Of a stretch of DNA of 39,246 nt, positions 234-25,697 are shown one piece after another. Each line of letters begins with the position of its first letter. The first letter of the stretch is position 1. This DNA comes from Candidatus Schekmanbacteria bacterium (GTDB taxonomy: Bacteria > CSSED10-310 > JACPHN01): positions 918 to 40,163 of the forward strand of contig JACPHN010000005.1 of the NCBI GenBank assembly GCA_016188575.1, in the 5' to 3' direction. Under the pieces are notes generated by a model, which did no database searches, was not told where the DNA came from, and worked only from the letters and a program-made list of their open reading frames with translations. The position numbers and the translations under genes were made by a program.

Positions 234-1613
234 TTACCGGCCGCCAGGAGAAGCGCGCTGCTCCGCATGATCCCGCGCGCAGCGAACGCCCAGATAATGG
301 TACCGCCGCGACCCCGGTCCGTTGACCGAGCGTTTGGCGGCGCGCACGTCGGCGGCGCTGGCCCACCACGTATCGCCGCGGCCAATGCGCACCGAGCCGG
401 ATTCGGGGCCCGTCGGGTTTTCGTACGGGCTCTGTGCGTAGTAGCTCTCGTCATACCAGTCCGCGACCCACTCGGAGACGTTTCCGGCCATGTCGTGCGC
501 ACCATAAGCCGAGCGACCGAGGGGGTAGCTGCCAATCGCGACAGTATCGCCGACGCAGCCGTTAATGTTCGTCGTGGCGCAGTCCGGCGCCCCGTCACCC
601 CAGGGGAAGATGCGCCCGTCGGTGCCACGTGCCGCCTTTTCCCACTCGGCCTCCGTCGGCAGGCGTTTACCGCGCCACCGGCAGTACGCCTCCGCTTGCG
701 ACCACCACAGACAGTTGATCGGGTGATTCTCGTGGCTGGCACGGTGGGTGTTGCACGTCTCTTCGTAGTAGGTGGGGCTGCAGGCACCTGCCCGCTCACA
801 GGCCGCGTAGTCGCCTGCGGGAGCCTCATAGCTGTCCAGGTAAAACGCATCGAGCCAGACGGCGTGCGCGGGAGCTTCGTCGGAATCGCAGGTGTAGGGG
901 CCCTGCGCCCCGCCGCAGCCCATGGTGAACTCGCCGGCGAACACCAGCACCTCCTGGTCGGCCCGGTAGGCAAACGCGATCGAGGCGCTCAGGAAAGCCC
1001 CTCCGTTGATGCTCAGGCGATACGAATAGGTCGTTCCGGCGGTTACCGCGGCGTCGGTGTAGGCGCGGTCGGCGGGCGATAGGCCGATGACGGCGCGGCC
1101 CTGGGGAGCCGCCTCGCCGGCGACGCCGGCGAGGCCGGCGGCGATCGCGGCAACGGCGCCGCAAGTCAGTGCGAACGCGCGGGCGCGGGCGCGGGCGCGG
1201 GCGCGTCGACGTCGAACAGGCGGCGGGTCCAGGCCCACTCGCCTTCCTGCCGCCGCCGCGACCGCCACGACCGCCGCCATCAGCAGCAGTAGCGCGCCGG
1301 CGGCGCCATTCCCGACGGCCGGCACGGCGGGTTCGCCGGGCGCGTCTCGCTCCAGCACCAGGCTGGTCACGCCTATTGCCTCGGAGATCGTCCATTCCAG
1401 CTCGATCGCGGCCGGAGTGGACCGCGCGAGCGTGAAGGAAACCGGGGGCGTCTCCGCCGCCCCGCACGGCAACGCCCCTGACAGCATCAGCAGCAGCACC
1501 AGTGCCGTTCCGGCGGCGGCCCGCACCGCGGTTGACCCTGCGCCCGGCGAGAACGCGCGCGCCACGCCGGCGAGGCCTTCCAAATCACCACCTACTCCGC
1601 GACGTCTGCCCAT
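234..1613 (-). CDS. Membrane-anchored FGE/SUMF-like domain protein with split Fn3-like domain
   Basis: 459 residues. The ATG at 1613 follows a good ribosome site (AAAGGAG). A signal peptide lies at about 29-52. From about 55 to 90 the sequence reads like the first half of a fibronectin-III domain (IELEWTISEA). A hydrophobic segment (~98-120), a very basic loop (~121-147, RARARA repeats) and a second hydrophobic segment (~148-168) follow. The second Fn3-like half (~176-215, TTYSYRLSING) comes next, then a formylglycine-generating-enzyme-like domain (PF03781, ~222-447) with EFTMGC, RLPTEAEWEKAARG, FPWGD, GNVSEWVADWY and GVRCA. True FGEs use a C-x4-C copper/catalytic pair in the C-terminal part; I do not see it here, so sulfatase activation is unlikely. 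The likely role is a ligand-binding or other modifying ectodomain on the outside of the membrane. It lies 12 bp behind a paralogue of the same architecture, so co-transcription is likely. Function is inferred only at fold level. Confidence 0.85.
   Translation of the reverse strand: MGRRRGVGGDLEGLAGVARAFSPGAGSTAVRAAAGTALVLLLMLSGALPCGAAETPPVSFTLARSTPAAIELEWTISEAIGVTSLVLERDAPGEPAVPAVGNGAAGALLLLMAAVVAVAAAAGRRVGLDPPPVRRRRARARARARAFALTCGAVAAIAAGLAGVAGEAAPQGRAVIGLSPADRAYTDAAVTAGTTYSYRLSINGGAFLSASIAFAYRADQEVLVFAGEFTMGCGGAQGPYTCDSDEAPAHAVWLDAFYLDSYEAPAGDYAACERAGACSPTYYEETCNTHRASHENHPINCLWWSQAEAYCRWRGKRLPTEAEWEKAARGTDGRIFPWGDGAPDCATTNINGCVGDTVAIGSYPLGRSAYGAHDMAGNVSEWVADWYDESYYAQSPYENPTGPESGSVRIGRGDTWWASAADVRAAKRSVNGPGSRRYHYLGVRCARDHAEQRASPGGR
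1176..1205. repeat. Hexanucleotide (CGCGGG) tandem repeat inside CDS
   Basis: About five copies of a 6-bp GC unit encode the Arg-Ala repeats of the basic loop between the two hydrophobic segments of the protein at 234-1613. Unit gain or loss would change loop length without shifting the frame. Confidence 0.7.
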
Positions 1614-1625
1614 GCTGAGCTCCTT

Positions 1626-4600
1626 TCACCGCGACAGCGCACAGCGGAAGCCGGCGTCGTGCACGTGCGTCAGATCCGCATGCAAGTTGCGCCGAGCCGT
1701 CCGCAGGCCGTTCCAACTCGGAGCCGAGCTGAAGTCATCGCTCCGTTGCACGTGGCCCGGTCCCGACGCGGGGCCCGTAGGGTTCAGGTAGGGGCTCACA
1801 GCATAGTAACCCGCATCGTACCAGTCGCTCACCCACTCCATGGAGTTCGCGGCCAGGTGGTAAAGCCCATAAGGAGATCTGCCCTTTTCGAGCGTATCCA
1901 CCGGCAGCGTCTCGCCGACGCACATTACGTAGGGCGGACCGGGTTGAAAGTTGGCATAGGTGCAATCCGGCTCTTCGTTTCCCCATGGATACTTCCGCTG
2001 GTCCGTGCCGCGCGCGGCCTTTTCCCACTCCGCTTCCGTAGGCAAGCGCCTCCCTTGGGCCGCGCAATACGTGTACGCGCCTTCCCAGAACACCGTCACG
2101 ACGGGATGGTTCTCGTAGCCCGCCTGGACCGTGTAGATGCTGCCCTCGGCCGAAATTCGGCTGTACCACTGCTCGTAATCGTCCTCGTTCCGGACCTTGT
2201 TGCAAGCGCGACCGGGGGTGCCGGAAGCATCCGTACATCCACTGGCGTGGTTGGTCCCCGAGGCGTTGAGCCAGGCCGCATACTGCGCGTTGGTGACCGC
2301 GTACAAGTCAATCGCGTACGCATTCAGATAGACGGGGTGAACTGGCTGCTCCTCCTCGCAACAATACTCCGAGCCCATCATGAATTCGCCGGCCGGAATC
2401 TGCGCCATGGTGCCCGGGTCGAGCGTGGGCGTGGGCGTGAGCGTGGCCGCCGCCGTCGGGCTTGGTGTCGTTGCTGTCGGCGTTGGGGTGGCGCCCGCGG
2501 AGTGGCGCACCGTGACCCACTCGCTCGCGTCCGCTCTACCATTGACCGTCACCCGGTAGTCGTAGCTTTCACCGAGCTCGGCGGTGGCGTCCGTGTAGCT
2601 GCGAGACGCCGCGGGCAGCTCCACGGCCCAGGCCGCGTAGGCGTATGCGGCGGCGGAAGCGAGCAGCGCCGCGCCGATTCCGCTGGCGCTCGCCACCCGC
2701 CGGCACCGCGATACGAGCAGCAGGAGCACGCCGGACGCGGCCCATAGCGCCACCGGTCCCGCCGGCACGGACGGCGTCGACCGCCGCTCCAACGTCTGCT
2801 GTGCCACCGCGATCGCCTCGTCGACATCCCACTCCAGAGCCACGCCCTCCGGCGTGCTTTCGGCGCGTGTGATGGCGACTGCCGCCTGCAGCGCGCCGCA
2901 TCCGGACCACCAACAGGGGTTCTCGTCGATAAACTGCGTGATGGCGTCGTATTTCGGCGAGGCCCCCTGATCCTGATGCTCCAGCGCTCCCCAGCTCCCA
3001 TACTTGGACCAGCCGCCGGCGTTGGTGAAGTGCATGAAGAGCGTGCCACCGCGGTCGCGCCAGCCAGCGAACCAGCGCCGGTAGACCTCGCCCATCCGCA
3101 CATCGCGGTTCGCCGCGTGGAACAGCGCTTCCATGCTCGCGTCGTCCAGGAGCTCGCCGACGCCGACGAGGTGCTGGCCGCCCTCATAAGCTACGAGCTG
3201 CAGGCCGGGATAGCCGGCCGAGAGAAACTGTGCCTGCTCCTCCAGGGTGGTGAACCCCGCCGAGATCTCGGTGCTGTCGATATCGCCAAGAAGCTGGTCT
3301 ACCGTCCACCCGGAAACTGCGGTATTCGTCCCGTACTCGTACCCGAAATAGGCGGCGATGGCGAACGCATCGACCTTTTGGAAGGTGTTTTCCCAGGAGA
3401 GCAGTCGCTCGTGCATCCAGGTGTTGCCGTTCTGAGAGGCGAGCACCCGCACCAGCCGCGTCCGGCCGCCGAAGACCTCCGCGAAGAGCTCCCAGATCTC
3501 CGCGGACCGGTGGCTGTAGTAACGCTGTCGCGCGTCGTCGCACGCGTCGCTCCACTGCGGCCAGGGGTGACCTTCGCAGTAGACGCCGTTGCCCGCGGTC
3601 TGATCCTGATCACAGCCGGACGCCTGCAGGTCCGCGTATAGCGCGCAGCCCTGCGCGGCGGCCCAGGCTTGCGCGAGCGAAAACGGATAGCCCGGATTCC
3701 ACACTTCGTTGGAGTATTCGACGTACACGCGGTGATCGCCGGCCAGGCGGTCACGGAGGCGCGTGGCGAGCTCGCGGACGAAATCATCGGCGGCCTTGAA
3801 TGGGACCGTGATCCAGATATCCGCGCCAAGCTGGTTGCCGAGCTCGGCGATGATTTCCGCGGGAGCTGCCTGCCAGCGCGCCGTCTGGAGCGTCGGGTAA
3901 GAGGAATAGCTAACCAGATTCTCATCGTACAGCTCCATCCAGTTGAGGAAGCGGATGGCCTTGTACTGGCTCAGATTGCGCAGAAAGGTTGGATGGAAGG
4001 GCTGCGTGGCGTAGCTTTCCGAGAACGGCGTACAGGCGCCGGATGGGCAATCGGAGCTGTCGTTGCACGCGGTGAACGGGTCGGAGGCGCAGGCGCCGCC
4101 GGGCATCAGGATCCGGATGTTGCGCAGGTAGTTGGCGGGGTTGGTGGCGGTAATCGTCATCTGCAGACCACCAGCGGCGGGATCCATGCTGAGCACGTCG
4201 CGGCCCGGCGACGAGGCCGCCTCGTCGCGGGTGGCGCCGCCGGCATACTCGAGAGTCCCCTCGCCGTCGTAGAGCACGACGTAGGTCCCGGCGGGGTGGC
4301 GGCCGTTGCCGTCCCAGAACTGCAGGGTATGAGCGACCTGTCCCCCGTTGGGGTGGCCGGCGTCGAGCGAGCGGACCCATCCGGCGTCGTCGAGGTCGAG
4401 CGGGCCGGCGCAGTCCCAGCAGCCCCAGCGCTCGCCGGCGACCCATGGTCGGCTCGTCTTGAAGGCGTCGACGAACGGCCACTCCTCGATCCAGTCGGTC
4501 AGGAACAGCAGGTTTGTGCCGACAGGCGAGTCTTCAGGCGGGGGAGGGGCCGCAGTCGCTGCGGAGGTGAGCACGGCGGTGGCCGCGAAGGCCGTGGCAG

Positions 4601-4697
4601 CGAGAAAGGCGAAGGCAAGAAGGGCGGCGGTTCGAGCAGGGAGTGTGAGGGGTAGCGCGGTTGCTCGTGTGGGGGCGGGGTGGCGGCGGACCGGCAT
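1626..4697 (-). CDS. Secreted glycoside-hydrolase-like / Fn3 / FGE-like fusion protein
   Basis: 1023 residues, ATG preceded by AGGAGG. The signal peptide runs to about residue 49. A large ectodomain (~55-595) resembles clan GH-A TIM-barrel hydrolases: EYSNEVWN near 330 has the Asn-Glu of the acid/base strand, and AYEGGQHL near 503 could supply the nucleophile Glu. Substrate is unknown; a polysaccharide is plausible. An Fn3-like domain starts at ~605 (VALEWDVDEA), is broken by two hydrophobic segments (~642-662 and ~670-692) around a short basic RCRR loop, and resumes at ~693-733 (YDYRVTVNG). A Thr-Pro linker (~735-762) leads to a PF03781 FGE-like domain (MAQIPAGEFMMG, RLPTEAEWEKAARG, KYPWGN, MEWVSDWYD, GFRCA). 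The catalytic Cys pair of genuine FGE is not visible. Cys-rich inserts in the barrel suit an extracytoplasmic protein. It is paralogous to the next gene over its last ~420 residues and divergent from the kinase gene. Confidence 0.85.
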   Translation of the reverse strand: MPVRRHPAPTRATALPLTLPARTAALLAFAFLAATAFAATAVLTSAATAAPPPPEDSPVGTNLLFLTDWIEEWPFVDAFKTSRPWVAGERWGCWDCAGPLDLDDAGWVRSLDAGHPNGGQVAHTLQFWDGNGRHPAGTYVVLYDGEGTLEYAGGATRDEAASSPGRDVLSMDPAAGGLQMTITATNPANYLRNIRILMPGGACASDPFTACNDSSDCPSGACTPFSESYATQPFHPTFLRNLSQYKAIRFLNWMELYDENLVSYSSYPTLQTARWQAAPAEIIAELGNQLGADIWITVPFKAADDFVRELATRLRDRLAGDHRVYVEYSNEVWNPGYPFSLAQAWAAAQGCALYADLQASGCDQDQTAGNGVYCEGHPWPQWSDACDDARQRYYSHRSAEIWELFAEVFGGRTRLVRVLASQNGNTWMHERLLSWENTFQKVDAFAIAAYFGYEYGTNTAVSGWTVDQLLGDIDSTEISAGFTTLEEQAQFLSAGYPGLQLVAYEGGQHLVGVGELLDDASMEALFHAANRDVRMGEVYRRWFAGWRDRGGTLFMHFTNAGGWSKYGSWGALEHQDQGASPKYDAITQFIDENPCWWSGCGALQAAVAITRAESTPEGVALEWDVDEAIAVAQQTLERRSTPSVPAGPVALWAASGVLLLLVSRCRRVASASGIGAALLASAAAYAYAAWAVELPAASRSYTDATAELGESYDYRVTVNGRADASEWVTVRHSAGATPTPTATTPSPTAAATLTPTPTLDPGTMAQIPAGEFMMGSEYCCEEEQPVHPVYLNAYAIDLYAVTNAQYAAWLNASGTNHASGCTDASGTPGRACNKVRNEDDYEQWYSRISAEGSIYTVQAGYENHPVVTVFWEGAYTYCAAQGRRLPTEAEWEKAARGTDQRKYPWGNEEPDCTYANFQPGPPYVMCVGETLPVDTLEKGRSPYGLYHLAANSMEWVSDWYDAGYYAVSPYLNPTGPASGPGHVQRSDDFSSAPSWNGLRTARRNLHADLTHVHDAGFRCALSR

Positions 4698-10029: not shown

Positions 10030-10460
10030 TCGCTGCGAGGCCCCGATACAGTCCTCACACCCGTACATGAAGCGGGGCTCCGAGCAGCCGGCGAGCGGGG
10101 TCCGCGCGCCGCATTCCCAACATGGGTGCGCTACCCCGACTTCGCACCGAGAGAACCGTCCCGCCGGCCATGAGGTCCTGCAGTGGCTCGGCGTGACCCG
10201 CGACGAGATTCAGCGAGAGGGTGCGTCGGCCCCAAGAGTTGGGAGCCGCGGCCGGCCATCTTTTCACCAGATAAAATATCTACGGCGAGAATGGCCGGAA
10301 ATTCCTCGAAAAACCGGCCATTCTTTCGCTAGATGCCGTATCCAGGCAGAATATGGCCGGAAATTGCCCGTTTTTTCGGCCATTTTTTCGTTAGATGGTT
10401 TATCTTCACAAAATTTGGCCGGCCTGCACCGGCCTGCACCGGCCATAGCGGCCGATGTGG
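10015..10460. repeat. Direct repeat copy A (~446 bp)
   Basis: Copy A matches 11221-11656 in the same orientation at roughly 90% identity by eye. Copy A has one extra 10-bp CTGCACCGGC unit near its end. It contains three 62-bp units with palindromic parts in its last ~200 bp. Together the copies flank the toxin-antitoxin pair. No transposase-like frame is present, so this is a non-autonomous repeat or the scar of a tandem duplication. Confidence 0.85.
10253..10429. repeat. 62-bp tandem units with dyads, copy A
   Basis: Units start with CGGCCAT at 10253, 10315 and 10377, an exact 62-bp spacing; the third is incomplete. Each carries an AGAT-N(4-5)-TATC dyad (perfect as AGATAAAATATCT in unit 1). 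Across unit borders the CGGCCAT pairs with the preceding ATGGCCG, for example AATGGCCGG...CCGGCCATT with a 15-nt loop. This looks like an array of protein-binding sites or structured DNA/RNA. Confidence 0.75.
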
Positions 10461-10556
10461 CGCTCGATTACGTCGGCGGGCGTGGGGTAAGGCCAGGCCG
10501 CATACTGCAATGAGAAACCCGTCGCGACGCTCTGAGGTCCGGCGCTCGACGCGATG

Positions 10557-11023: not shown

Positions 11024-11220
11024 CGGCATCTCCTGGTCCATGCGTCAGGCGGTCTCAAGTTCCTCGAGGCGCCTGCAGAGCATTGTGCACTCTGTTCGTC
11101 GCGTCTTGCCAACCCGGCGCTCGGCCGGGTGCGCGCCCAGGATGGCAGCGTCACCAGACGCGTCTTTGCTGCGATCATTCAATCGCCGCTCGACTGGCGT
11201 GTCAATCCCTTGCTCAACCG

Positions 11221-11656
11221 CACTTGTTCGGAGACTCGCTGCGAGGCCCCGATACAGTCCTCACACCCGTACACGAAGCGGGGCTCCGAGCAGCCGGCGT
11301 GCGGGGTCCGCACGCCGCATTCCCAACATCGGTGCGCAACCCTGACTTCGCACCGAGAGAACTCTCCCGCCGGCCATAAGGTCCTGCAGTGGCTTGGCGT
11401 GACCCGCGACGAGATTCAGCGAGAGGGTGCGTCGGCCCCAAGGGCTGGAGGCCGCTACCGGCCATCTTTTCACCAGATAAAGTATCTACGGCGAGAATGA
11501 CCGGAAATTCGTTGAAAAACCGGCCATTCCTTTGCTAGATGCCGTATCCAGGGAGAATATGGCCGGAAATTACCCGCTTTCTCGGCCATTTTTTCGTTAG
11601 ATGTTTTATCTTAAGAAAATTTGGCCGGCCTGCACCGGCCAGAGCGGCCGATGTGG
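11221..11656. repeat. Direct repeat copy B (~436 bp)
   Basis: Second copy of 10015-10460, same orientation, ~1.2 kb downstream. It retains the start of the inverted-repeat arm (CACTTG then TTCGGAGAC) with one mismatch. It lacks one 10-bp unit near the end. Differences are spread over the whole length, so the copies are not recent. Confidence 0.85.
11459..11635. repeat. 62-bp tandem units with dyads, copy B
   Basis: CGGCCAT-starting units at 11459, 11521 and 11583 keep the exact 62-bp spacing seen in copy A although bases have diverged. The AGAT...TATC half-sites are largely kept, while the GGCCGG dyads have lost some pairs. Confidence 0.75.
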
Positions 11657-11919: not shown

Positions 11920-12967
11920 CGCTATGGCCTCCACCATTTTCGCTGCTGCGGTCCTTCGATGAGCCTGTCGACCGCCGGAACGTCTTCGCGCGCAGCTTCC
12001 GTGAGCTGCGGTCCGCTCAACTCGTCGACGATGTGCGGAGTGATCATGATGATGAGCCCCGTGCGCCGATTCGAGACGGACTTGGAGCTGAGCAGCCGTC
12101 CGAGGATCGGGATGCGCTGCAGCCAGGGGATGCCGCCGCTGCCGCTGTGCGCCGCGGTGCGGATGAGGCCGTCGAAGATCAGGGTCTCGTCCGCGCGCAT
12201 GGCCACCGACGTCTGAACCTTGCGCTTCTGAATGGTCGGAGCCTCCGTGCCGCCGATGTTCGATTTCGCCACCTGTTCGGACACCTCCTGCGCCACCTCG
12301 AGCGTCACGAACTGGCTCTCCGTGATCCGCGGCTTCACCTTCAGAATGACACCCGTATCGCGGTACTGAATCGAGGTGTTGATCGGCGTCGTGCTCGGCG
12401 TGCCGCCCCCGGTTCCCGAACTGCATACCGAAACGGGGATCGGCACCTCATCCGCAACCTCGATCGATGCTTCAGTGTTGTTGGACGCCGTGATCTGCGG
12501 GCTCGACAGCACGATGAGCTTGGCGTCGTTGGCGAAGGCGTTGAGCAGCCCCTGGAACCGCGTGGCCTCGAAGATCCCACAGGTGAAGCCGGCCGCGGTC
12601 GGCGACGCGGATCCGTTCAGGCGCGCGTCGGAATCGAAGTAGTAGTCCTCGCCGTCGACGGTGAGGTTCCCCTGGCTCTTGAGCTGCCAGGTCACGCCGA
12701 ATTGCCACGAATCATCGAGGGCGACCTCAGCGATGAGCACCTCGACGAGCACCTGGCGCGGGAAGATGTCGAGCTTCTTGATCGTCTCCAGCACGTACGG
12801 CCAGCTTACCGGAGACGTGACAATGACGAGCGAGGTGGTACGCTCGTCCGAAACGACCTTGACGTCGCCTTGCACCGACCCGGACAACGAGGCGTCGCCG
12901 GCGTTCGGCGACGGCGGGGCGGGCCGCTCGGGTTGCGGCTCCGGCTGGGGTTGCGGCGCCTCCGGCG
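11815..12967 (-). pseudogene. Diverged partial duplicate of the gspD secretin domain
   Basis: This block aligns with 16567-17719 end to end with no net indel (constant offset 4752). The part from 11922 encodes the last ~345 residues of GspD: a final N-domain fragment, then the secretin domain (VEVLIAEVALDDSWQFG, SSPQITASNN, IPWLQRIPILGRL, IMITPHIVDEL). N0 to N2, the signal peptide and a start codon are missing; the open frame continues upstream to 13214 only through unrelated sequence. Substitutions include Tyr-to-Cys changes at two places (FTCGIF, SVCSSG). The frame is still open throughout, so selection may have been relaxed only lately, or the block is a donor for gene conversion. Confidence 0.85.
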
Positions 12968-13290
12968 GAACGGTCATCGCCGCCAGTGCGCCGGCCACCG
13001 GGCCAAAGGGGACCGGATTGTCGCTCGGAGAGTTTGTTCTCGAGGAAGAGGCACCGAGCGCCAATCGCGAGCCGTATGCGGCGCCCAAGGAGCTGGAGCC
13101 GGCGAAATACGGCTTCGACAGCCGCGAGCAGATGCGCAGCGCGGTCCGGCGCCGCCTGAGCGTACCCGAAGCGCTCGGCATCAGCCTCTTCACCGAGGCG
13201 ACCGAGGACGCCAAGGAGCGAGTGGTGATCGCTGTCTTCGCGCATGACGACGAAGAGTGGATCGGATCGGGGATGGCCCGAACGCAATGA
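12968..13290 (+). pseudogene. 3' fragment of an unrecognised plus-strand gene
   Basis: Directly after the end of the gspD homology, the plus-strand frame ending with the TGA at 13288-13290 reads like genuine protein with coding-type codon use (AAPKELEPAKYGFDSREQM, VPEALGISLFTEATEDAKER, VIAVFAHDDEEWIG). No start fits; upstream the frame runs antisense through the gspD copy. I read it as a gene cut by insertion of the duplicated block. Family not recognised. 13291-13409 shows nothing further. Confidence 0.55.
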
Positions 13291-13409
13291 GCCCGTAAAG
13301 AAGGGAGCTGCGGGTGGGCCGAGCAGTGGCTGGAGGCCGGAGCTAAGATCGAAGGCGGCGGGCAAGACGGGGCCGGAGACCGCGTCCGGGGGCTGCTAAC
13401 TCCAGCCGC

Positions 13410-13730
13410 TCAGTGCTTCCGGAAGGGGGGCCAATCCTCGGGCCGGCGCGCCACCTCTTCTCGGTAGAGCTCGATCAGGCGCTTCAGGGGATTCCAGGCA
13501 ATCCACTTCTCATCGCTGTCGCGGATGCTCGGCCGCTCCTCATTGAGATCGAGCGTCGCGCTGGCCATCGCTCGCCAGCTCACGGTACCCGCGTCGGCCA
13601 GGACTTCACGGGCCGCCTCGTGATGAAGGCTGCAGAGAACCGCGCTCCGGCCGTAGCGGCCGGCAATCCCCGCCTCGTTGAGGTTGACCGCCATGTCCTG
13701 GCCGCACACATCGCACTGGAGCCTGCTCAT
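13410..13730 (-). CDS. Small putative zinc-binding protein
   Basis: 106 residues from the ATG at 13730, which has GGAGG six bases upstream; a GTG at 13745 is also in frame. It begins MSRLQCDVCGQDM, followed ~25 residues later by LCSLHHE, a CxxC...CxxHH layout likely to bind zinc. The rest is helical with RLIELYREEVARRPEDW near the end. It is not a known transcription factor by eye. It sits among gene fragments in the rearranged region but appears complete. Confidence 0.65.
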   Translation of the reverse strand: MSRLQCDVCGQDMAVNLNEAGIAGRYGRSAVLCSLHHEAAREVLADAGTVSWRAMASATLDLNEERPSIRDSDEKWIAWNPLKRLIELYREEVARRPEDWPPFRKH

Positions 13731-13805
13731 ATTCACCCTCCGCACCCAGCACCAACCCGGATGACCTTCTGGACCCCGTGCCCTTGCAAGGGTCCAGCGG
13801 CCGCG

Positions 13806-14240
13806 CTAGCCCGGGCCTCGACCTCCCGGGAGCTCGTCGGCCACGTCGGCCATCCTGTCCATCAGGTCCCGGGCGGTCCGGGCCTGGAGGATCTCCCCCG
13901 GCTGGTGGTGGCGAATGCCCCAGTCGTTGATCTCGAAGCCCTTCGAGCTCTGGAAGAGTGCCAGGATCTTGCGCTGCAGCGGCGCGTTCTTCAGCAAATC
14001 CTGGACATTTGCCACCGCGGTGGCCTTGATCATGACCGTGGAGTCGAGCTCGCTCTGGCCTACCTGGACGTCCTGAGTGCGAAAGACGGTCTTGCCGACT
14101 TTGCTGGTCCAGCTCTCAGGATAGATCCGCAAGCCCAGCTCGTAAGGCCTGGCGAAGAACAGCGCGGTCTTGACGCTGTAGGAGCGGGCCTTGCTCGACC
14201 CGCTGGATGACGAGTGCGTCTCGCGCAGCAGGAACAGCTC
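13806..14240 (-). pseudogene. 5'-truncated gene cut at the 55-bp repeat
   Basis: The frame is open and protein-like from the repeat edge at 14240 to the stop at 13806 (ELFLLRETHSSSSG, ALFFARPYELGLRIYPESW, VQVGQSELDSTVMIKATAVA, RKILALFQSSKGFEINDWG). Immediately upstream an in-frame TGA occurs within the repeat, so no N terminus is available; a TTG at 14132 could only give a 108-residue remnant. Truncation coincides exactly with the junction repeat. I do not recognise the family with certainty. Confidence 0.55.
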
Positions 14241-14295
14241 GTATCACGCGTCGCGACCGCGGCGTCAATCGCAATCAGCGAAGTCAGGCGCGTAG
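14241..14295. repeat. 55-bp junction repeat, copy 2
   Basis: Same sequence as 11764-11818 apart from three bases. It spans the last codons and stop of the GNAT gene and ends at GTATCAC, where the truncated gene at 13806-14240 begins. This copy is likely the ancestral one because it is in its natural place at the GNAT 3' end. Confidence 0.85.
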
Positions 14296-14780
14296 GAGAC
14301 GACGCCCTGGCAGCGCGCCAGGGAGCCCGGCGTAAGCTCCAGGACCATGAATGCCGGTTCGGGCACCGGGAAGGGCAGGCGCAAGCCCGCCGCGGCGGCC
14401 GGGCGAAAGCCGAACCGCGGGTAGTACTCGGGGTGGCCCAGCACCACCACGATGTCGCCGTGCGCGCGCCGACACGCGGCGAGCCCGGCGGTCACCAGCA
14501 GCTTTCCGATGCCCTGGCGTTGTCGATCGGGCGCGACTGCAACCGGCCCGAGCCCCAGCGCCGATGACCCCGGCGCTGCCCCGTCGACCGTGACGGGGGA
14601 GAACAGAATGTGGCCGACGACCCGGTTGCGATCGACGGCCACGAGATCCACGACTGCCAGGCCGCGCGCCTGGAGCGCCGCGACCAGCCGCGCCTCATTG
14701 CGGCGGCCGAACGCGGCTTCTTCGACCGCGGCTACGCCGCTTGCGGCGGCAGGCGTCGAAATCCGGATGTCGATGGGCAT
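14265..14780 (-). CDS. GNAT family N-acetyltransferase
   Basis: 171 residues, usual length for the YhbS-like GNAT group. The acetyl-CoA loop is visible as VAPDRQRQGIGKLLV, after LGLGPVAV. Further motifs are VVLGHPEYYPRFGFRPA, PEPAFMVLELTPGSL and a C-terminal YAPDF. These match predicted N-acetyltransferases with the HPxYYxRFGF motif; substrate unknown. The ribosome site is weak. A strong hairpin lies 28 bp upstream, after the end of the T2SS operon, so read-through from that operon is possible. Its 3' end supplied the 55-bp repeat found again at 11764. Confidence 0.9.
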   Translation of the reverse strand: MPIDIRISTPAAASGVAAVEEAAFGRRNEARLVAALQARGLAVVDLVAVDRNRVVGHILFSPVTVDGAAPGSSALGLGPVAVAPDRQRQGIGKLLVTAGLAACRRAHGDIVVVLGHPEYYPRFGFRPAAAAGLRLPFPVPEPAFMVLELTPGSLARCQGVVSYAPDFADCD

Positions 14781-14807
14781 GGTATGATGTTGGCGAAGCC
14801 CCCGGGG

Positions 14808-14840
14808 CCGGCGCCGCCGGCCGTTTCGCGGCGGCGCCGG
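14808..14840 (-). terminator. 12-bp perfect GC-only stem after the T2SS operon
   Basis: CCGGCGCCGCCG, a 9-nt loop (GCCGTTTCG), then CGGCGGCGCCGG. It begins ~22 bp past the stop of the Ig-like gene and ends 28 bp before the GNAT start. There is no T-tract, so if it terminates it may need Rho; it could also pause transcription or protect the 3' end of the operon mRNA. Confidence 0.55.
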
Positions 14841-14862
14841 GGCGCGGGATTGCGATCCCAGG

Positions 14863-16671
14863 TCATGGGGTTGGGGCCGCCGTGGGCGTGGGTATTGCCG
14901 TTGGCGTGGGCTGCTTCACCTCGATCGTGACCTCGTCGAACAGCGAGCCGACGGTCGCGCGGATGACCGACGTGCCCTCCACGGTGCTGGAAAACGTGAA
15001 CGCGATCTGCCCAGCGCTTGTTGCGTCCTGTCCCTTGCTGAGGTTTCCAGGCCCCGACACGATGCTTAGCGTGACCACTGTGCCGTCCTTGACGGGTTTT
15101 CCATTCGCGTCCTGTACCGTGGCGGTCAGACTTGCGAGATCGCTACCGGTGGGGAAAATCAGATTACGGTTCGTCTCGAGCAAAACCGCATCGGGCACGC
15201 CGGGTGTCTGCGTAGGTGTCGCCTGAATCGTCGGCGTCGGCGTCGCCGTTGCGGGCGCCGGCGTCGGCGTCGGCCCCGAAACCGTCAGGCTCGTGCAGAC
15301 CTGCGTCAGCGTGAATTCGAGCACGGCGCACACCTGACCGGTACCGACACCCGGATCCACTGTCTCTCCGATGCTCACGGCCGCGGTGCCGACCTGCTCG
15401 TCCGCCGTGCAGTTTTCCGTGCCGATGTCTCCCGATCCGCAGATTTGAGCGAGCGCATCCTCCGCGGCGATGCCGCCGAGCGTGCTCGTGAATCCGATTT
15501 GCTGCGGGCACGGCGAGCGCGTGCAGCGGTCCGGGTCGTAGCGCGTGCCGTCCCGCAGCACCAGGGCGATTGCGTCGTTGACGCACCCTTCACACATCGT
15601 TCCCGACTGCAGCGTCACGAACATCGTGAATCCGGTGATGATGACCTCGGTCAGCTTGATCTTGATCGTGTCGAACGCGAGCCCCGAGTTCGCCGTGATC
15701 GCCGCGGTCGTCGGGTAGGTGGGGGACTTGAACGTCGTCACCGCCACCCCGGCGACGGTAGAAACCGGCGACCCGATCGTCCCGGCCGTGGTCGCAAACG
15801 TCACGCTCGTGCCGTCGGGCACCATCGTGCCGAACTGGTCGTAGACCGTAGCCGTGATGATCGCCGTGCTGTTGCCGTCCGCCGGCATCTCGTTGCGCGT
15901 CGTCCGCAGATCCAGCCGGGTCGGCGTGATCCGCTCGAAGTGCACCTTGGTGGACCCGGAATACTTGCCGCTCGAGCCCGTCACTCGCGCCACCCCTTCG
16001 TCGGTGACGCTGTGCAGGATCGCCGTGGCGAGGCCGAGCCGCGTCTCCGCGGATTCGTCGATCGTGCCGAGCGTGGTGTCGAAGTGAATGACCGTGCCGT
16101 CCGCCGCCGGATCGCCGTTTTCGTTGATGACGGTGGCGTGAATCGTGGAGGTGCTCAAGCCGTCCGCCGGAATGCGGTTTTGCGTCGCCGTCAGCACGAT
16201 GCCGCCGACGCCGGCCTTCGTAAACCGGACTTCCGTCGACCGTTCGATGTGGAACGAGCCGACGGAGGCCTCCCCGGCCGTGTAGGTGCCGCGCGCGTCG
16301 ATGCGGATGTGGGCGGTCCCCGAGATGATCCCCGCCGTGAGCGTCGCCGAAGCGCTGTTGCCCTCGAAGGCCGCCGCCGGCGCCTCGAAGGCTCCGAGGT
16401 CGGTGGCGAAGACCACCGAGCCGCTCGGAGTCGTACCGTCAGGCGCGACGATGATGACAGTGATCGTTACGGTCGACTCGCCGTCTGCCGGAATCGTGTC
16501 GCGGCTGATCGAGACTTCCATGCGTTCCTGAGACGCCGGCGACGTCGGGCTCGGCCGATCGCAGCCGTAGTAGACCGCCGCTCCCAGCAGCGTCACGCCG
16601 AGCAGCACCAGGGCCCGCGACATCACCCAGCCGCGGAAGGACATTTCGTGCTCTTGTCGCTTCCCAGTCAT
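14863..16671 (-). CDS. Bacterial Ig-like (Big_1/invasin-type) surface protein downstream of gspD
   Basis: 602 residues from the ATG at 16671, chosen because GGAGG lies 8 bp upstream inside the last gspD codons; an ATG at 16689 would overlap gspD by 16 nt. A basic N terminus is followed by a hydrophobic segment ending GAAVYYGC, which could be a membrane anchor or an atypical lipobox. Then come three invasin-type Big_1 repeats (~40-330), each with the hallmark IPADG- or MPADG-STxTIxATV and GTxVxFxTTxGTI. A Cys-rich middle section (~335-450), a Thr-Pro linker, a further Ig-like domain (~490-585, NGKPVKDGTVVTLSI) and a Pro/Thr tail complete it. Coupling to gspD suggests it is a T2SS substrate, a pilus/secretin accessory or an adhesin; this is inference. 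Its start was duplicated at 11815-11919. Confidence 0.85.
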   Translation of the reverse strand: MTGKRQEHEMSFRGWVMSRALVLLGVTLLGAAVYYGCDRPSPTSPASQERMEVSISRDTIPADGESTVTITVIIVAPDGTTPSGSVVFATDLGAFEAPAAAFEGNSASATLTAGIISGTAHIRIDARGTYTAGEASVGSFHIERSTEVRFTKAGVGGIVLTATQNRIPADGLSTSTIHATVINENGDPAADGTVIHFDTTLGTIDESAETRLGLATAILHSVTDEGVARVTGSSGKYSGSTKVHFERITPTRLDLRTTRNEMPADGNSTAIITATVYDQFGTMVPDGTSVTFATTAGTIGSPVSTVAGVAVTTFKSPTYPTTAAITANSGLAFDTIKIKLTEVIITGFTMFVTLQSGTMCEGCVNDAIALVLRDGTRYDPDRCTRSPCPQQIGFTSTLGGIAAEDALAQICGSGDIGTENCTADEQVGTAAVSIGETVDPGVGTGQVCAVLEFTLTQVCTSLTVSGPTPTPAPATATPTPTIQATPTQTPGVPDAVLLETNRNLIFPTGSDLASLTATVQDANGKPVKDGTVVTLSIVSGPGNLSKGQDATSAGQIAFTFSSTVEGTSVIRATVGSLFDEVTIEVKQPTPTAIPTPTAAPTP

Positions 16672-16673
16672 CG

Positions 16674-19163
16674 CTATGGCCTCCACCATTTTCGCTTCTG
16701 CGGTCGCTGGATGAGCTTGTCGACCGCCGGGACGTGTTCGCGCGCCGCTTCCGTGAGCTTCGGTCCGCTCACCTCATCGACGATGTGCGGGGTGATCATG
16801 ATGATGAGCTCGGTGCGCCGGTTCGACACGGACTTGGAGCTGAACAGCCGGCCGAGGATCGGGATGCGCTGGAGCCACGGTATGCCACCGCTGCCGCTGC
16901 GCGACGCGCTCCGGATGAGGCCGCCGATGATCAGCGTCTCGTCCGCGCGCATCGCCACCGACGTCTGGGCCTTCCGCTTCTGGATGGTCGGGGCCTCGGT
17001 GCCGCCGATGTTCGACGTCGCTCCCTGCTCGGAAACCTCCTGCGCGACCTCCAGCGTCACGAACTGGCTCTCCGTGATCCGCGGCTTCACCTTCAGGATC
17101 ACGCCCGTGTCGCGGTACTGTATCGAGGTGTTGATCGGCGTCGTGCTCGGCGTGCCGCCGCCCGTGCCCGAGCTGTAAACGGAGACCGGAATCGGCACCT
17201 CATCCGCCACCTCGATCGAGGCCTCCGTGTTGTTGGACGCCATGATCTGGGGGCTCGAGAGCACGTTCAGCTTGGCGTCGTTGGCGAAGGCGTTGAGCAG
17301 CCCCTGGAACCGCGTGGCCTCGAAAACGCCGTAGGTGAACCCGGCCGCGGTCGGCGACGCGGATCCGTTCAGGCGCGCGTCGGTGTCGAAGTAGTAGTCC
17401 TCGCCGTCGACGTTGACATTGCCCTGGCTCTTGAGCTGCCAGGTCACGCCGAACTGCCACGAATCATCGAGGGCGACCTCGGCGATGAGCACCTCGACGA
17501 GCACCTGGCGCGGGAAGATGTCGAGCTTCTTGATCGTCTCCAGCACGTACGGCCAGTTTACCGGAGAGGTGACGATGACGAGCGAGTTGGTGCGCTCGTC
17601 CGCGACGAGCTTGACGTCGCCTTGCACCGACCCGGACAACGAGACCTCGCCCACGTTCGGCGACCGCGGGGCGGGCGGCTCGGGTTGCGGCTCCGGCTGG
17701 GGTTGCGGCGCTTCCGGCGACTGCGGCCCCCGGTAGGTCCGATCTTCCTTTTCCTGCTGCTGCCGCGAGGTCGGCGCTTTCTGATCCTTCGCCGTCGCCG
17801 CGCCGCCGCCGTAGAGCTGGCCGAGCGTGGTGGCGAGCTTCGCGGCCTCGGCGTTTTCGACGTAGTAGACGTAGGTGCGCTCGCTCACGTAGATGTCGAC
17901 GTCGAGAATCTCGATGATCTTGCGGATGAACTCGATCTCGCGGCGGTTCGCGAAGATGATGAGCAGGCTGGAACGTTCGTCGGGGATGATGATGGGCTTC
18001 GCTGCGCCCTGGCCGACGGCGCGCACGACGAGCTCGTCCGCCGCGATGCGCACGGCTTCCGCATCCGGCGTGCCTTCACGGGGGATAGCCGGGAGCTGAC
18101 CCGCCTGCCCGCCCGCGCCCTTTCCGCCCTCCAGAATCTTGTTCAGCGTGTCCGCGATGTCCTTCACGGAGGCGTACTTGATGCGGATGACCTCGAGCTC
18201 GCGTTGCGACGTGTCGACGTCGATGATCTGGAGGATCTTCAGCATCCGGCGCACGATCGACTTGTAGTCGGTGACGATCAGGATGTTGGTGCCGCCGTGA
18301 GCGGCCACCGTGCCCGTGGCACTCTTCATGGTACCGAGCAGCGTCGCGACTTCCTGGGGCGTGACATAGCGCAGCGGCACGATCTGCGTGACCACGATGT
18401 CCTGATCGGCCACGTCCTCGGGCCGGCCGCCGACGCCGATCTCGCTCATCTTCTTGCCGGCCTCGGTGGTCGGCAGGATCTTGTAGTAGCGTCCCGAGCG
18501 CGCGACACTCAGGTTGTTCATCTCCAAGAGGCTCAGGAAGACGTCCCAGGCCTGCTCGGGCTTGATCTCCTCCGAGGAGTAGATGGTGATGCTTCCCGTC
18601 ACGGATTTGCCGACGATGACGTCGATCCCGAGGATGTCGGTGGCGAACTGGTGAATGACCTCGCGGATGTCGGCGTCCTCGTAGTTGATGAAGAAAGATT
18701 CGGTGACTCGCGGCTTGGGGAGCGGTTCGCCGAACATGCCGGCCGGTGATTCCGGGACGTCCGGACCTTCCGCGGCGGGCATCGCCGCTCGGCCGGGGGC
18801 AGTGTCCGCCGGCGGTGTCTCCTGGCCGGCGGCGGCCGGAGGCTCGGCGCTGGCCGGTTCGCCGCCGGTTGGGGTGCTTTCCGCGGCCGGCGCGGCCGCT
18901 TCTGCAGGCGCTTGCTCCGTCTCGGCCGGTGCGGCTGCGGCGGGCGCTTCTGCCGCAGGAGTCGATGGGGTCGCCGCGGTTTCTGCCGGCTCCGCGGCCG
19001 CACCCTCCGCCGCCTCTCCCTCCGCCGCGGCCCCGGCGGCCTCGGAGTCCGCTTGCGGCGGTTCCTGCTCCACCCCGGTTTGCGCCCCCTTCGTGCTCGC
19101 GCATGACCAACCGGCGAGCGCGATCATCGCGATCACAGCTATCCCGACTCGCAATCTACCCAT
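16674..19163 (-). CDS. gspD: Type II secretion outer-membrane secretin GspD
   Basis: 829 residues, forms the outer-membrane channel. The signal peptide ends at LAGWSC (Cys21), a possible lipidation site. An unusually long Ala/Glu/Pro-rich linker (~25-155) precedes N0 (FFINYEDADIREVIHQFA). N1 (VPLRYVTPQEVATLLGTM), N2 (EVIRIKYASVKDIADTL), N3 (TYVYYVENAEAAKLATTL), a Gln/Pro spacer and the secretin domain (VEVLIAEVALDDSWQFG, SSPQIMASNN, VGG-like GGTEAP, IMITPHIVDEV) follow. It is the last T2SS gene here, 56 bp after gspC, and its stop overlaps the ribosome site or alternative start of the Ig-like gene. A diverged copy of its last third lies at 11922-12967. Confidence 0.95.
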   Translation of the reverse strand: MGRLRVGIAVIAMIALAGWSCASTKGAQTGVEQEPPQADSEAAGAAAEGEAAEGAAAEPAETAATPSTPAAEAPAAAAPAETEQAPAEAAAPAAESTPTGGEPASAEPPAAAGQETPPADTAPGRAAMPAAEGPDVPESPAGMFGEPLPKPRVTESFFINYEDADIREVIHQFATDILGIDVIVGKSVTGSITIYSSEEIKPEQAWDVFLSLLEMNNLSVARSGRYYKILPTTEAGKKMSEIGVGGRPEDVADQDIVVTQIVPLRYVTPQEVATLLGTMKSATGTVAAHGGTNILIVTDYKSIVRRMLKILQIIDVDTSQRELEVIRIKYASVKDIADTLNKILEGGKGAGGQAGQLPAIPREGTPDAEAVRIAADELVVRAVGQGAAKPIIIPDERSSLLIIFANRREIEFIRKIIEILDVDIYVSERTYVYYVENAEAAKLATTLGQLYGGGAATAKDQKAPTSRQQQEKEDRTYRGPQSPEAPQPQPEPQPEPPAPRSPNVGEVSLSGSVQGDVKLVADERTNSLVIVTSPVNWPYVLETIKKLDIFPRQVLVEVLIAEVALDDSWQFGVTWQLKSQGNVNVDGEDYYFDTDARLNGSASPTAAGFTYGVFEATRFQGLLNAFANDAKLNVLSSPQIMASNNTEASIEVADEVPIPVSVYSSGTGGGTPSTTPINTSIQYRDTGVILKVKPRITESQFVTLEVAQEVSEQGATSNIGGTEAPTIQKRKAQTSVAMRADETLIIGGLIRSASRSGSGGIPWLQRIPILGRLFSSKSVSNRRTELIIMITPHIVDEVSGPKLTEAAREHVPAVDKLIQRPQKRKWWRP

Positions 19164-19219
19164 GAACCCCTCTTCCTCACTCGATATCCGCGTGGCTCAG
19201 TATCGCGCTGCCACTTTAG

Positions 19220-19894
19220 TCAGTCTTCCTCAGCTTCCGCAACCCTTCCGGGGTTGCGCCGCACGCGGTTCGCCGGCGGCCTCGCCTGGCCGCGGCGTTC
19301 CTGGGGCGTGAGCGGGCGCACTTGCGGCGGCATCTCCGGCTGCGGCGCCTCGCCCGCGGCCGGTGGCGGCCCACCCTCGCCGAAGCGGTGGAGCTCCAGG
19401 GTGATCTCCTCGCTTCCCTGCGCGAGCACCACGTGGTCGCGCTCGACCGTCGCCAGCGTGTAGCCGCCGACGTCGGACCCTTGTGGGAAGCCGAGCGGCT
19501 TCGGCCCGGACAGCAGGGAGGGGCTCTGCAGCATCGCGATGCGTTGATCGTTCATCAGCACGACGCCGACCAGGCTGAGGTCCGTTGGGGGCGGGGCGGC
19601 CGGGGGCTTGTCGGTGTCCGGTGTGGGCGTGACCTCAGGCCCAGGTTCGGTGCGGTCCGGCACGAACGGGTGTTTCTGAGCCAGGACCGCATAGCTGCCG
19701 GCAGCCGCTTCGCTGGGCTGGCGCCGCGGCCGCGGCGAGCGCGCCGGTGCCGGGTTATCCGCGGTGGGCGTCGCCGCCGCCACGGGGAGCTCGGGAACGT
19801 CGATCGGCGACGATACCTGTTCGTAGAGGGCACCGGAAAGTCCAATGGACCCCATTCCGAGCAGGGCAATGACAAGGCGATACTGGCGCAGCAC
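19220..19894 (-). CDS. gspC: Type II secretion inner-membrane protein GspC (PilP-like HR domain)
   Basis: 224 residues. GTG start three bases after the gspM stop. One N-terminal membrane segment (~5-25), a Pro-rich periplasmic linker, then a homology-region domain (SYAVLAQKHPFVPDR ... LSLVGVVLMNDQRIAML ... GGYTLATVERDHVVLAQGSEEITLEL) that docks on the N0 domain of GspD. There is no PDZ or coiled-coil C-terminal domain; instead a disordered Pro/Arg tail ends it. This short form lies between classical GspC and PilP. Position between gspM and gspD supports the call. Confidence 0.85.
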   Translation of the reverse strand: MLRQYRLVIALLGMGSIGLSGALYEQVSSPIDVPELPVAAATPTADNPAPARSPRPRRQPSEAAAGSYAVLAQKHPFVPDRTEPGPEVTPTPDTDKPPAAPPPTDLSLVGVVLMNDQRIAMLQSPSLLSGPKPLGFPQGSDVGGYTLATVERDHVVLAQGSEEITLELHRFGEGGPPPAAGEAPQPEMPPQVRPLTPQERRGQARPPANRVRRNPGRVAEAEED

Positions 19895-19897
19895 TGC

Positions 19898-20569
19898 TCA
19901 ATCCTCGCTTTCCGGCGCCCGCCGGTCCCGGGGGCTCCGATCCTCGGCCGCCGCGTCAGCCGGCGCCGCGGCCGTCGTATCGGCCGATGGTGGTGGGCCA
20001 TAGTAGCCCGTGATCGTCATGTCTACCTTGACCCGTCCGTCCGGCTCGCGCACGTTCAGCACGCGCAGCCGCGCCTTCGGGACGCGCATCAACCGCTTCT
20101 CCTCGAGCTCGACCGCGGACAAGAAAGCGGTGAGCTGGGTCATGTTGACCGTGATCCTGGTCTGGCAAAGCAGCTCCACGAAGGTACCCTTCTGCGGGCT
20201 CGGCGACGCACTGAACTGATCGACGGAGACTTGCAGTCGATCGGCGATTTCCTGCACCGTGCGCTGCAGCTCGCCGGCGGCGATCGTCGCTGAATCCCCG
20301 GGGAACAGGCGCTCCTTGATCGTGAGCTCCTTCTCGTCGACTTCTCTGGCTTTCCGCTCAAGCTTGTCGCGCTGCTTCAGCTTGTGCGCGTTCAGGCGCA
20401 GCTCGCGGCGGAGCTCCTCGGCCCGTTCGCGGGTCTCGGAAAGCGCGCCGAAGACCTGGTCGAAAGCACCATAGCCGAGAATCAGTGCCACCACCACACC
20501 ACCGGCGATGAGGACGCGCTTCTCGCGCGCGTTGATGTTGCGGAAAGCGTTCAGGATCTTCTCTTTCAT
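19898..20569 (-). CDS. gspM: Type II secretion inner-membrane protein GspM (PilO-like)
   Basis: 223 residues from the ATG at 20569, which overlaps the gspL stop as ATGA. A short cytoplasmic tail, one membrane helix (~20-40), a coiled coil (SETRERAEELRRELRLNAHKLKQRDK) and a ferredoxin-like periplasmic domain (~100-195) give the usual GspM/PilO layout. A disordered Ala/Asp/Arg tail follows. It pairs with GspL to form the inner-membrane platform. Confidence 0.87.
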   Translation of the reverse strand: MKEKILNAFRNINAREKRVLIAGGVVVALILGYGAFDQVFGALSETRERAEELRRELRLNAHKLKQRDKLERKAREVDEKELTIKERLFPGDSATIAAGELQRTVQEIADRLQVSVDQFSASPSPQKGTFVELLCQTRITVNMTQLTAFLSAVELEEKRLMRVPKARLRVLNVREPDGRVKVDMTITGYYGPPPSADTTAAAPADAAAEDRSPRDRRAPESED

Positions 20570-22197
20570 TGCTCGGGTCCTGTCTCGGGTCCGGTCTCGG
20601 GTCCGCGCTCCGGCGCGCGATCGGCGGCGCGCTCGCCTGCCGCTTCGGTTCGCGGCGCTGGCCCCGGCGCTTCTCGGGTTTCGGCGGCGGCGTCTTGACC
20701 CTCCTTGCCTTCCTCTTCCTTGGGAAGGTCGGGCGTAATGGCCATCGTCAGGTTGAAGGTGTCGCGCGAGCTCGATCCCTTCCACGCCACGTTCTGGAAG
20801 TAATCGGAATCCTCCAGGATCTTGGTGAGCTGGCTGGCGGTTTCCGAAGTGCCTCGGAGGTTGACGGCATCCGCCTGAATGTCAGCGTCGTTGACCCAGC
20901 TATCTTCCGGAAGGATGCGGGCCAGCTCCGCGAGCAGCACCAGGCGCGGCCGGTACCCCTTTTCCAGCTCTTCGTACGCGGCGATCCCCTTCTGATTGGA
21001 CTGCACGCGCTCCTCGAGCGCTTTCACCCGTTCGATAGCGGGTGCCCACGCCGCCTTGGTCTGCTCGAGCGCCGCCAGCTCCTCCTCCTGGTGATAGATG
21101 AAATAGCCGGCGTTGACGAGCAGCAGCCATACCGCGATGGCGCCGATCAACAGCGAGGCATAGACCGAGTAGTCGCGCAGCTCTACCTTGCGCTCCTGAG
21201 GGAGCAAATCGATGTCAAAGTAGGACGACTCGAAGGCGCCGATGGCCAGCGCGGCAGTGCGGAGGCTCGCCGGAGTCGCCTCGCGCTCACCTCGCTCGAC
21301 GTCCTCCGGCCACGGCAGGAGCTGCACCGGGCACTCCCACCGCAAGTTCAGCATGTCGCGGAAGGTGGTCATCGGCACACCCTCTCCGAGCAAACAGATG
21401 CGCTGAATGGTCCGCCGCTCGTAGGGGATCCAGGCGTTGGACATGGCCCGATTGAGCACCTCCGTCACGCGGACCGCCATGTAGTTGGCGATCTCCTGCG
21501 CCGCGGAGGCGATCCCCGGCGCCGTCGCGGAGAGCAGCTCCTCCATGCCGCCGCCCGGGCCGCCGAGCTGACTGACGTGGCGGGTGAAGAGCAACGTGCC
21601 GCCGCCCGTAATCGTAATTTCGATGCCGTCGTCGCGCAGGTCGACAAACGCCGTGTTGGCTTCCCAGTCTTTCCCCTCCGTGCGCGCGATCAGGTTAGAC
21701 AGCGCCAGGCCGCCGATACGGAGCTCGTAGGAGGGAAGCCCGAGCGCCTCCATCGCATCGAGAATGGGATCCAGCATCGAACGCTTGCCGGCCACCAGCA
21801 ACGAACGCATGGCGGTCGCTTCCTCGGCGTCCTTGACGGTTGCTCGTTCGACGCTGCAGTAGAGGTCGTCGAGCGAGAACGGCAAGTGGCGATCGGCCTC
21901 GAACCGCAGGATGCGGGGCAGATCGGCGTCCGGAACGGGTGGGAGGTTGACGAACCGAAGGAACGCCCAGGTGCGGGGAATGCCGATGACCGCCCGTTCC
22001 GGAGCCGCGGGGAGCTTCTGCAGCTCGGGTGCGAGAATCGCGCGGATGCCTTCGCGCCACTCCGGCATGCGCGGGTCGCCGAGCTGGGCGACGCGGATGT
22101 GGTCGGCGTATAGAAGCTCCGCCCGCCGCACTTTCTTGCCGAACAAGCCGATCTCGATTTCATCGGGACGAAAGTTGATGCCGAGAACTGTGTCCAT
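20566..22197 (-). CDS. gspL: Type II secretion protein GspL (PilM-PilN-like fusion)
   Basis: 543 residues. The cytoplasmic actin-like half (~1-330; GINFRPDEIEIGLF, VIGIPRTWAFLRFVNLP, FVDLRDDGIEITITGGG) contacts GspE. One membrane helix (~347-367, LLIGAIAVWLLLV), a coiled coil and a periplasmic ferredoxin-like domain (PEDSWVNDADIQADAVNLRG) match PilN. The C terminus is a disordered tail with repeated ETGP/RAPERGP units. It is 156 bp from gspK; that gap (22198-22353) shows no gene and no clear promoter. Confidence 0.9.
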   Translation of the reverse strand: MDTVLGINFRPDEIEIGLFGKKVRRAELLYADHIRVAQLGDPRMPEWREGIRAILAPELQKLPAAPERAVIGIPRTWAFLRFVNLPPVPDADLPRILRFEADRHLPFSLDDLYCSVERATVKDAEEATAMRSLLVAGKRSMLDPILDAMEALGLPSYELRIGGLALSNLIARTEGKDWEANTAFVDLRDDGIEITITGGGTLLFTRHVSQLGGPGGGMEELLSATAPGIASAAQEIANYMAVRVTEVLNRAMSNAWIPYERRTIQRICLLGEGVPMTTFRDMLNLRWECPVQLLPWPEDVERGEREATPASLRTAALAIGAFESSYFDIDLLPQERKVELRDYSVYASLLIGAIAVWLLLVNAGYFIYHQEEELAALEQTKAAWAPAIERVKALEERVQSNQKGIAAYEELEKGYRPRLVLLAELARILPEDSWVNDADIQADAVNLRGTSETASQLTKILEDSDYFQNVAWKGSSSRDTFNLTMAITPDLPKEEEGKEGQDAAAETREAPGPAPRTEAAGERAADRAPERGPETGPETGPEQ

Positions 22198-22353
22198 GTG
22201 TCGTCCTTCGCTCCGCTAGTGCGTCGCTCGCGCCGTTCTCCGGCCGGCGCGGTCCACTGCCTGCGCCGCTGTCGAATAGTAGCCTGCCCGCTCGCGCCTT
22301 TCCAGCGTGGCGGCTGGACTCGGAGTCACTGTAGACAGTCGCGCCGTCATTGC

Positions 22354-23622: not shown

Positions 23623-23626
23623 GGTC

Positions 23627-25658: not shown

Positions 25659-25697
25659 CGGGCTCCCGCTGTCTGGCCTCTGCGCCGCGCTCCCGGC

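Follow-up and report, generated by a model that had tools for sequence, protein, structure and literature searches.

Tags of the PEP-CTERM, IPTL-CTERM and VPDSG-CTERM kinds, which go with exosortases, sit at the C-terminus of their proteins and combine a short proline motif with a membrane helix and an arginine cluster. IPTL-like sequences are the motif class of exosortase H. Mid-protein sorting tags, in turn, have so far been noted only as rarities or as the name of a family. According to PMC11980579, such tags do work within a protein, and for the internal MYXO-CTERM tag of MXAN_5598 it was proposed that processing occurs there (PMC11980579). The family is NF033207, called 'midcut-by-XrtH', a name that lets one expect a mid-protein cut by exosortase H; no paper using it was found in the literature we searched. 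As for the domain of main concern here, the passage of PMC11666773 that cites Dutta et al. 2005 describes an Fn3 domain severed in the C-D loop: the two peptides reconstitute a domain that still binds its target, albeit with lower stability. In the genome studied here, a member of a rare uncultured phylum, mid-protein tags are common, lie within a single foldable domain and are joined to a segment that resembles a signal peptide.

Split Fn3 modules in P1, P2 and their relatives

The window, i.e. the whole stretch of DNA that was analysed (39,246 nucleotides; contig JACPHN010000005.1 of a Candidatus Schekmanbacteria bacterium, positions 918 to 40,163), holds two adjacent open reading frames, both on the minus strand, whose existence as earlier described was borne out (Table 1). 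Their products, P1 and P2, each start with a signal peptide and have an FGE-sulfatase domain at the C-terminal end (Pfam PF03781; E 2.4e-45 for P1 and 4.5e-42 for P2). In P1, the split Fn3 module lies directly between the two, while in P2 it is preceded by about 550 residues without a Pfam match and followed by a T/P-rich linker. The P1 insert consists of VPAVGNG with a hydrophobic stretch, a basic loop (RRVGLDPPPVRRRRARARARAR, read also as RRRRARARARAR) and a second hydrophobic segment; its P2 counterpart runs from VPAGPVALW... through RCRR into a segment with the end AYAYA.

The arginine loop of P1 is encoded by a (CGCGCC)n hexamer repeat (window 1179-1244), in which a change of length is possible with the frame kept. 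Elsewhere in the window, a type II secretion operon on the minus strand (11922-29127) comprises E, F, G, pseudopilins, K, L, M and D and has two secretin genes (11922-13214 and 16674-19163) with a Big_1/invasin-domain gene between them. Two closely similar stretches at 10067-10513 and about 11150-11500 (HSQHGCATPTSHREN...VTRDEIQREGASAPR), where there are no clear genes, suggest a direct repeat.

Table 1. Features of P1 and P2 in the window (aa, residues of the respective protein).
Feature	Window position	Strand	Basis
P1, 459 aa: signal peptide, split Fn3, FGE-sulfatase	234..1613	-	ORF; PF03781
P1 N-terminal signal peptide, aa 1-53	1455..1613	-	sequence: basic n-region, VLLLMLSGALPCGAA
P1 Fn3 first half, strands A-B-C, aa 58-96 (predicted)	1326..1442	-	ordinary-Fn3 HMM; family-vs-ordinary-Fn3 hhalign E 6e-21
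P1 hairpin segment 1, VPAVGNG + hydrophobic helix, sorting-tail-like, aa 97-123	1245..1325	-	VP enrichment; terminal-tail HMM
P1 basic loop RRVGLDPPPVRRRRARARARAR, (CGCGCC)n repeat, aa 124-145	1179..1244	-	sequence
P1 hairpin segment 2, signal-peptide-like, aa 146-168	1110..1178	-	signal-peptidase-like sites enriched in segment 2 of the family
P1 Fn3 second half, strands D-G, aa 173-216 (predicted)	966..1097	-	ordinary-Fn3 HMM; matches other family members
P1 FGE-sulfatase domain, aa 218-447	273..962	-	PF03781
P2, 1023 aa: signal peptide, N-terminal domain without Pfam match, split Fn3, T/P-rich linker, FGE-sulfatase	1626..4697	-	ORF; PF03781
P2 Fn3 first half, aa 606-643 (predicted)	2769..2882	-	ordinary-Fn3 HMM
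P2 hairpin segment 1, VPAGPVALWAASGVLLLLVS, aa 644-663	2709..2768	-	sequence; VP/tail comparison
P2 basic loop RCRRVAS, aa 664-670	2688..2708	-	sequence
P2 hairpin segment 2, end AYAYA|A, signal-peptidase-like, aa 671-688	2634..2687	-	site scoring
P2 Fn3 second half, aa 689-734 (predicted)	2496..2633	-	ordinary-Fn3 HMM
P2 FGE-sulfatase domain, aa 763-1020	1638..2411	-	PF03781

The first-pass annotation had seen the split as conserved in two diverged paralogues. Both indeed carry it, but it is not limited to them: a profile search for homologues with the same split returned 21 full-length modules on many contigs of the own genome (9.2 Mb; candidate division CSSED10-310) with E values from 2e-44 to 4e-10, plus partial ones, as well as two modules in a genome from another family of the same phylum (G002) and one full-length case from another phylum (G070). 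The own-genome proteins differ widely in their other domains, and the modules are diverged in sequence (about 20-40% identity). An assembly artefact as the source of the splits is ruled out, as they recur on different contigs and in different genomes.

While the G070 case came from a sample of 386 genomes, no further full-length Fn3 split was found in 24 genomes of its phylum or among the best 10 candidates per genome from 394 other genomes; in both large samples the best 10 candidates per genome were scored, and more cases may exist. A genome-contig scan with the Fn3 subfamily returned no relative, own-genome records being possibly outside that scan. Widespread Fn3 splitting is unsupported by this single full-length case beyond the phylum, and the Fn3 form of the split appears concentrated in this lineage. 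Three variants may be mentioned here. The Fn3-splitting hairpin of G070 (L099) has a second segment that ends in AFASCGGG, like a lipoprotein signal peptide. At C221:6928-7215 (L058) in the own genome, a hairpin and an Fn3 second half stand behind a cohesin/dockerin-like region and lack an Fn3 first half. An orphan second half at C66:19720-20000 (own genome, minus strand) is accompanied by an out-of-frame hairpin with a (TTCC)n tract immediately upstream; this may represent a decayed copy or another type of phase-variable gene.

That an Fn3-type domain is split in both proteins by two hydrophobic segments around a basic loop, as had been noticed from the letters, held up when an HMM built from 12 ordinary Fn3 domains, all of other genomes, was run on the 21 modules with and without the hairpin. 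With the hairpin kept, 20 of the 21 modules match in two parts (about model positions 2-42 and 45-94) that flank it; with the hairpin deleted, nearly all of them match in one unbroken stretch and score higher. The exception, C97, matches by its second half only, whether the hairpin is in or out. P1 (19.0 bits) and P2 (15.7 bits, hairpin deleted in both) are the lowest-scoring of the 21 modules, yet far above the best of 420 shuffles (5.3 bits). Consistent with this, hhalign of the uncut family against ordinary Fn3 covers 91 columns (E 6e-21) with the halves aligned and the hairpin as a gap. Individual modules also reach Pfam fn3 (PF00041; cut-off 25 bits): C70 matches positions 2-83 of 84 at 36.2 bits without its hairpin and 2-44 only with it, and the G070 module scores 34.6 bits once the insert is removed. 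Since Pfam fn3 alone matches neither P1 nor P2, their assignment to Fn3 rests on the family. Strand C (YxVxR) precedes the insert and strand D follows it, which places it in the C-D loop, and by homology the split region of P1/P2-type modules is a single predicted Fn3 domain. AlphaFold2, run on the P2 module with P1 as the only second row, gave a pLDDT of 44.8, too poor to use.

The two segments of the hairpin

Genuine C-terminal tails of the own genome read VP[AVL]xxG, transmembrane helix, RRR. An HMM made from 15 of these terminal tails scores segment 1 of the Fn3 modules at a median of 5.5 bits versus 0.0 for 651 control helices that have basic residues after them (p 2.5e-5), and VP precedes segment 1 in 17/21 Fn3 modules compared with 79/651 control transmembrane segments (p 4e-12). 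Helix and basic residues are present in all 21, while VP is absent in four, including both of G002. The earlier impression that segment 1 looks like a C-terminal sorting tail captured in mid-gene is thereby strengthened, and the placing of both Fn3 halves outside is likewise supported by a topology that agrees with the positive-inside rule. Relatives show IPTL-like motifs in segment 1 (IPTLSVTG, VPTLGLLG). The hairpins do not stand at the extreme C-terminus; the second half-domain and further domains come after them, and of about 24 hairpin proteins inspected whose C-terminus is complete, none has a terminal tail besides the hairpin.

Other profile comparisons were mixed. Four own-genome tags from CarboxypepD_reg domains (see below) did not exceed controls with the terminal-tail HMM, and one CarboxypepD_reg locus, L281, missed the NCBIfam tag cut-offs (TIGR04174, 12.8 against 20.5 bits; TIGR02595, 14.6 against 16), while an isolated 24-residue piece of C111 passes TIGR03382 and TIGR03501. 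As for the enzyme, one exosortase was detected in the own genome (C106:10913-11350), which matches XrtH (TIGR04177) at 86.5 bits with a cut-off of 86 and has the Cys, Arg, His pattern of the XrtH family. Exosortase-family proteins are encoded in all eight phylum genomes tested.

Segment 2 begins at the basic loop and ends with small residues at the would-be -3 and -1 positions, so that basic n-region, hydrophobic core and small residues at -3/-1 together give it the makings of a type I signal peptide. A strict signal-peptidase-like site is found in 29/38 second segments, in 33/63 N-terminal signal peptides and in 90/216 outward helices of polytopic proteins, the difference between the first and the last (p 8e-5) being indicative, given a hand-set rule and related sequences. 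Site scores are similar to those of N-terminal signal peptides; the length of segment 2, on the other hand, is much like that of a true membrane helix (18.6 residues; by the same rule, signal peptides have 16.8 and control helices 16.7). Some modules without VP still have a good site of this kind. In three further proteins (C141, L303 of G003 and L307 of G064), a tag and, after it, an ordinary-looking signal peptide stand between apparently complete domains, and these junctions suggest how the hairpin element arose, namely from a gene ending in a sorting tail that became joined to the signal peptide of the next gene.

The same hairpin in CarboxypepD_reg domains

A hairpin scan of 1.58 Mb of the own genome uncovered the same element within CarboxypepD_reg (transthyretin-like) domains. 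For instance, C195 matches PF13620 at positions 1-81 of 82 (38.4 bits) without its hairpin and at 16-81 with it. A profile of the CarboxypepD_reg split finds full-length matches in six of eight phylum genomes (own, G001, G002, G003, G006, G007), mostly in FGE proteins, and all seven loci of one set from the genome scan (L277-L283) read signal peptide, split CarboxypepD_reg, FGE-like domain. The hairpin is peculiar neither to Fn3 nor to the P1/P2 paralogues, and specificity for FGE proteins is ruled out by its occurrence with many other domains.

AlphaFold2, given the split sequences of L277-L283 alone and without ordinary domains, returned a model of mean pLDDT 66.9 and pTM 0.38, with two antiparallel helices at about 80 pLDDT and strands in both halves. 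While Foldseek found no significant match to this model, VIA-align superposed 62-70 residues, spread over model positions 1-130, onto individual domains, with Z 4.5 (2.4 A) for the transthyretin-like domain of human carboxypeptidase D (5aq0), Z 4.9 for carboxypeptidase N (2nsm) and Z 5.3 for pilin GBS52 (3phs). These Z scores of 4.5-5.3 are modest and cited since the alignments span both halves; indeed, both must contribute, the second half being no more than about 48 residues long. So with moderate confidence, the two CarboxypepD_reg halves are predicted to form a single sandwich. The earlier idea that the halves reassemble into one sandwich hence draws on Fn3 homology and on this moderate model, but not on a confident model of P1 or P2.

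In one CarboxypepD_reg-split subfamily, segment 2 contains, always at one position close to its end, a run of 9 to 25 G (L239, L240, L241, L242, L328-L330, L332, L334 and own-genome C111:1-900). The frame is read through in C151 (G13) and C2 and shifted in C139, C53, C237 (two), C74 and C111, so that the tract is probably one of phase variation, or else a homopolymer assembly problem.

Cleavage or anchoring, and comparison with known systems

Our best reading, which we put forward tentatively, sees the insert as an internal sorting tag plus signal peptide that is cut in the membrane, with the Fn3 halves re-associating. Accordingly worded, an internal copy of the genome's own C-terminal tag (VPxxG, membrane helix, arginine cluster) would be fused head-on to a signal-peptide-like segment in the C-D loop. 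The precursor would be exported via its N-terminal signal peptide, the chain would dip into the membrane at the tag and turn in the cytoplasm at the arginines, and segment 2 would re-export it, both Fn3 halves folding together outside. Most likely, the tag would be recognised by the genome's exosortase XrtH and segment 2 by signal peptidase I, and cuts by the former at the tag and by the latter after segment 2 would excise the hairpin. The N-terminal chain would then be fixed to the envelope like other tagged proteins, and the C-terminal chain with its FGE domain would be held by non-covalent re-association of the Fn3 halves. What the sequences show is the split with its position and recurrence, the tag motif, the signal-peptidase-like end and the presence of an exosortase; that the two cuts occur, what becomes of the N-terminal chain and that two chains result is what we infer. 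For the hairpin at C221:6928 reassembly cannot apply because the Fn3 first half is absent there. In its general form, by which tag and signal peptide in a sandwich domain are both cut, the membrane segment is removed and the domain recloses as two chains, this membrane-level 'excision without ligation' would serve for display and concern some thirty proteins of one genome, be found across the phylum and affect at least two domain folds, a generalisation that seems possible but doubtful to us.

A permanent two-helix anchor would leave the chain uncut, with the Fn3 domain on the outer face of the inner membrane and the helices hanging from its C-D loop. Such an anchor fits the positive-inside topology, the length of both segments (about 19 residues) and the two well-predicted antiparallel helices of the CarboxypepD_reg model, but it needs neither the VP motif of C-terminal tails nor a signal-peptidase-like end on segment 2; to our minds it is less likely than excision but the main rival to it. 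The first-pass annotation had proposed a membrane-hairpin anchor; while the hairpin is there, its permanence becomes one of two options, since segment 2 resembles a signal peptide with a signal-peptidase site. Cleavage might also be confined to a single site, either to VP, in which case the hairpin would go on anchoring the C-terminal chain, or to the signal-peptidase site, whereby that chain would be freed and segment 1 would anchor the N-terminal one. Each site is plausible by itself, and some modules lack VP and have a good signal-peptidase-like site, but the two features go together in most modules, which makes this improbable. Lastly, the hairpins could be scars of gene fusion between a sorting tail and the signal peptide of the next gene, with no function as a unit. 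While the tail and signal peptide junctions between apparently complete domains (C141, L303, L307) look the part and an internal MYXO-CTERM motif has been explained as a fusion (PMC11980579), scars hardly account for one insert position in one domain across 21 Fn3 modules despite their divergence, nor for the same arrangement being kept phylum-wide in CarboxypepD_reg, so we give this option very little weight.

If the processing of tag and signal-peptide-like segment does occur, it would explain how a cut protein stays together at the surface and would offer a direct assay for exosortase H. Independent of mechanism, our data carry a warning for annotation: a membrane hairpin inside Fn3 or CarboxypepD_reg can hide the domain.

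Among described systems, NF033207 comes close by name, and the own genome encodes XrtH. CarboxypepD_reg-split modules match this family across the hairpin, and partly in the second half (e.g. positions 3-82, 25-155), at about 20-32 bits; the best score in the phylum, 31.6 bits, stays below the cut-off of 45, and P1 and P2 gave no match. Compared by family name and profile match, NF033207 may be related to the split sandwich domain. FGE-sulfatase proteins (PF03781) are the other frame of reference, as P1, P2 and L277-L283 end in or contain this domain; here, the N-terminal split domain is an addition, and the hairpin occurs with other domains, too. The split monobody, as far as the passage in PMC11666773 describes it, has the same Fn3 loop interrupted and halves that re-associate without a covalent link, but is engineered from synthetic peptides and has no membrane segment. 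Together with the statement that mid-protein tags are functional (PMC11980579), the re-forming of an Fn3 domain split at C-D, as reported in that passage, makes two-chain processing credible. MXAN_5598 likewise has a tripartite tag in mid-protein that is proposed to be processed there (PMC11980579), yet this tag separates an adhesin region from an outer-membrane barrel rather than interrupting one domain, and pairs with a myxosortase rather than an exosortase. With PEP-CTERM, IPTL-CTERM and VPDSG-CTERM tags our insert shares the proline motif, helix and arginine cluster, but while those are C-terminal, the tag here is internal and is followed by a signal-peptide-like segment. So as a kind, the internal sorting tag is known in outline; what appear to be new are its position inside a single domain, its coupling to a signal-peptide-like segment, its occurrence in Fn3 and how abundant it is.
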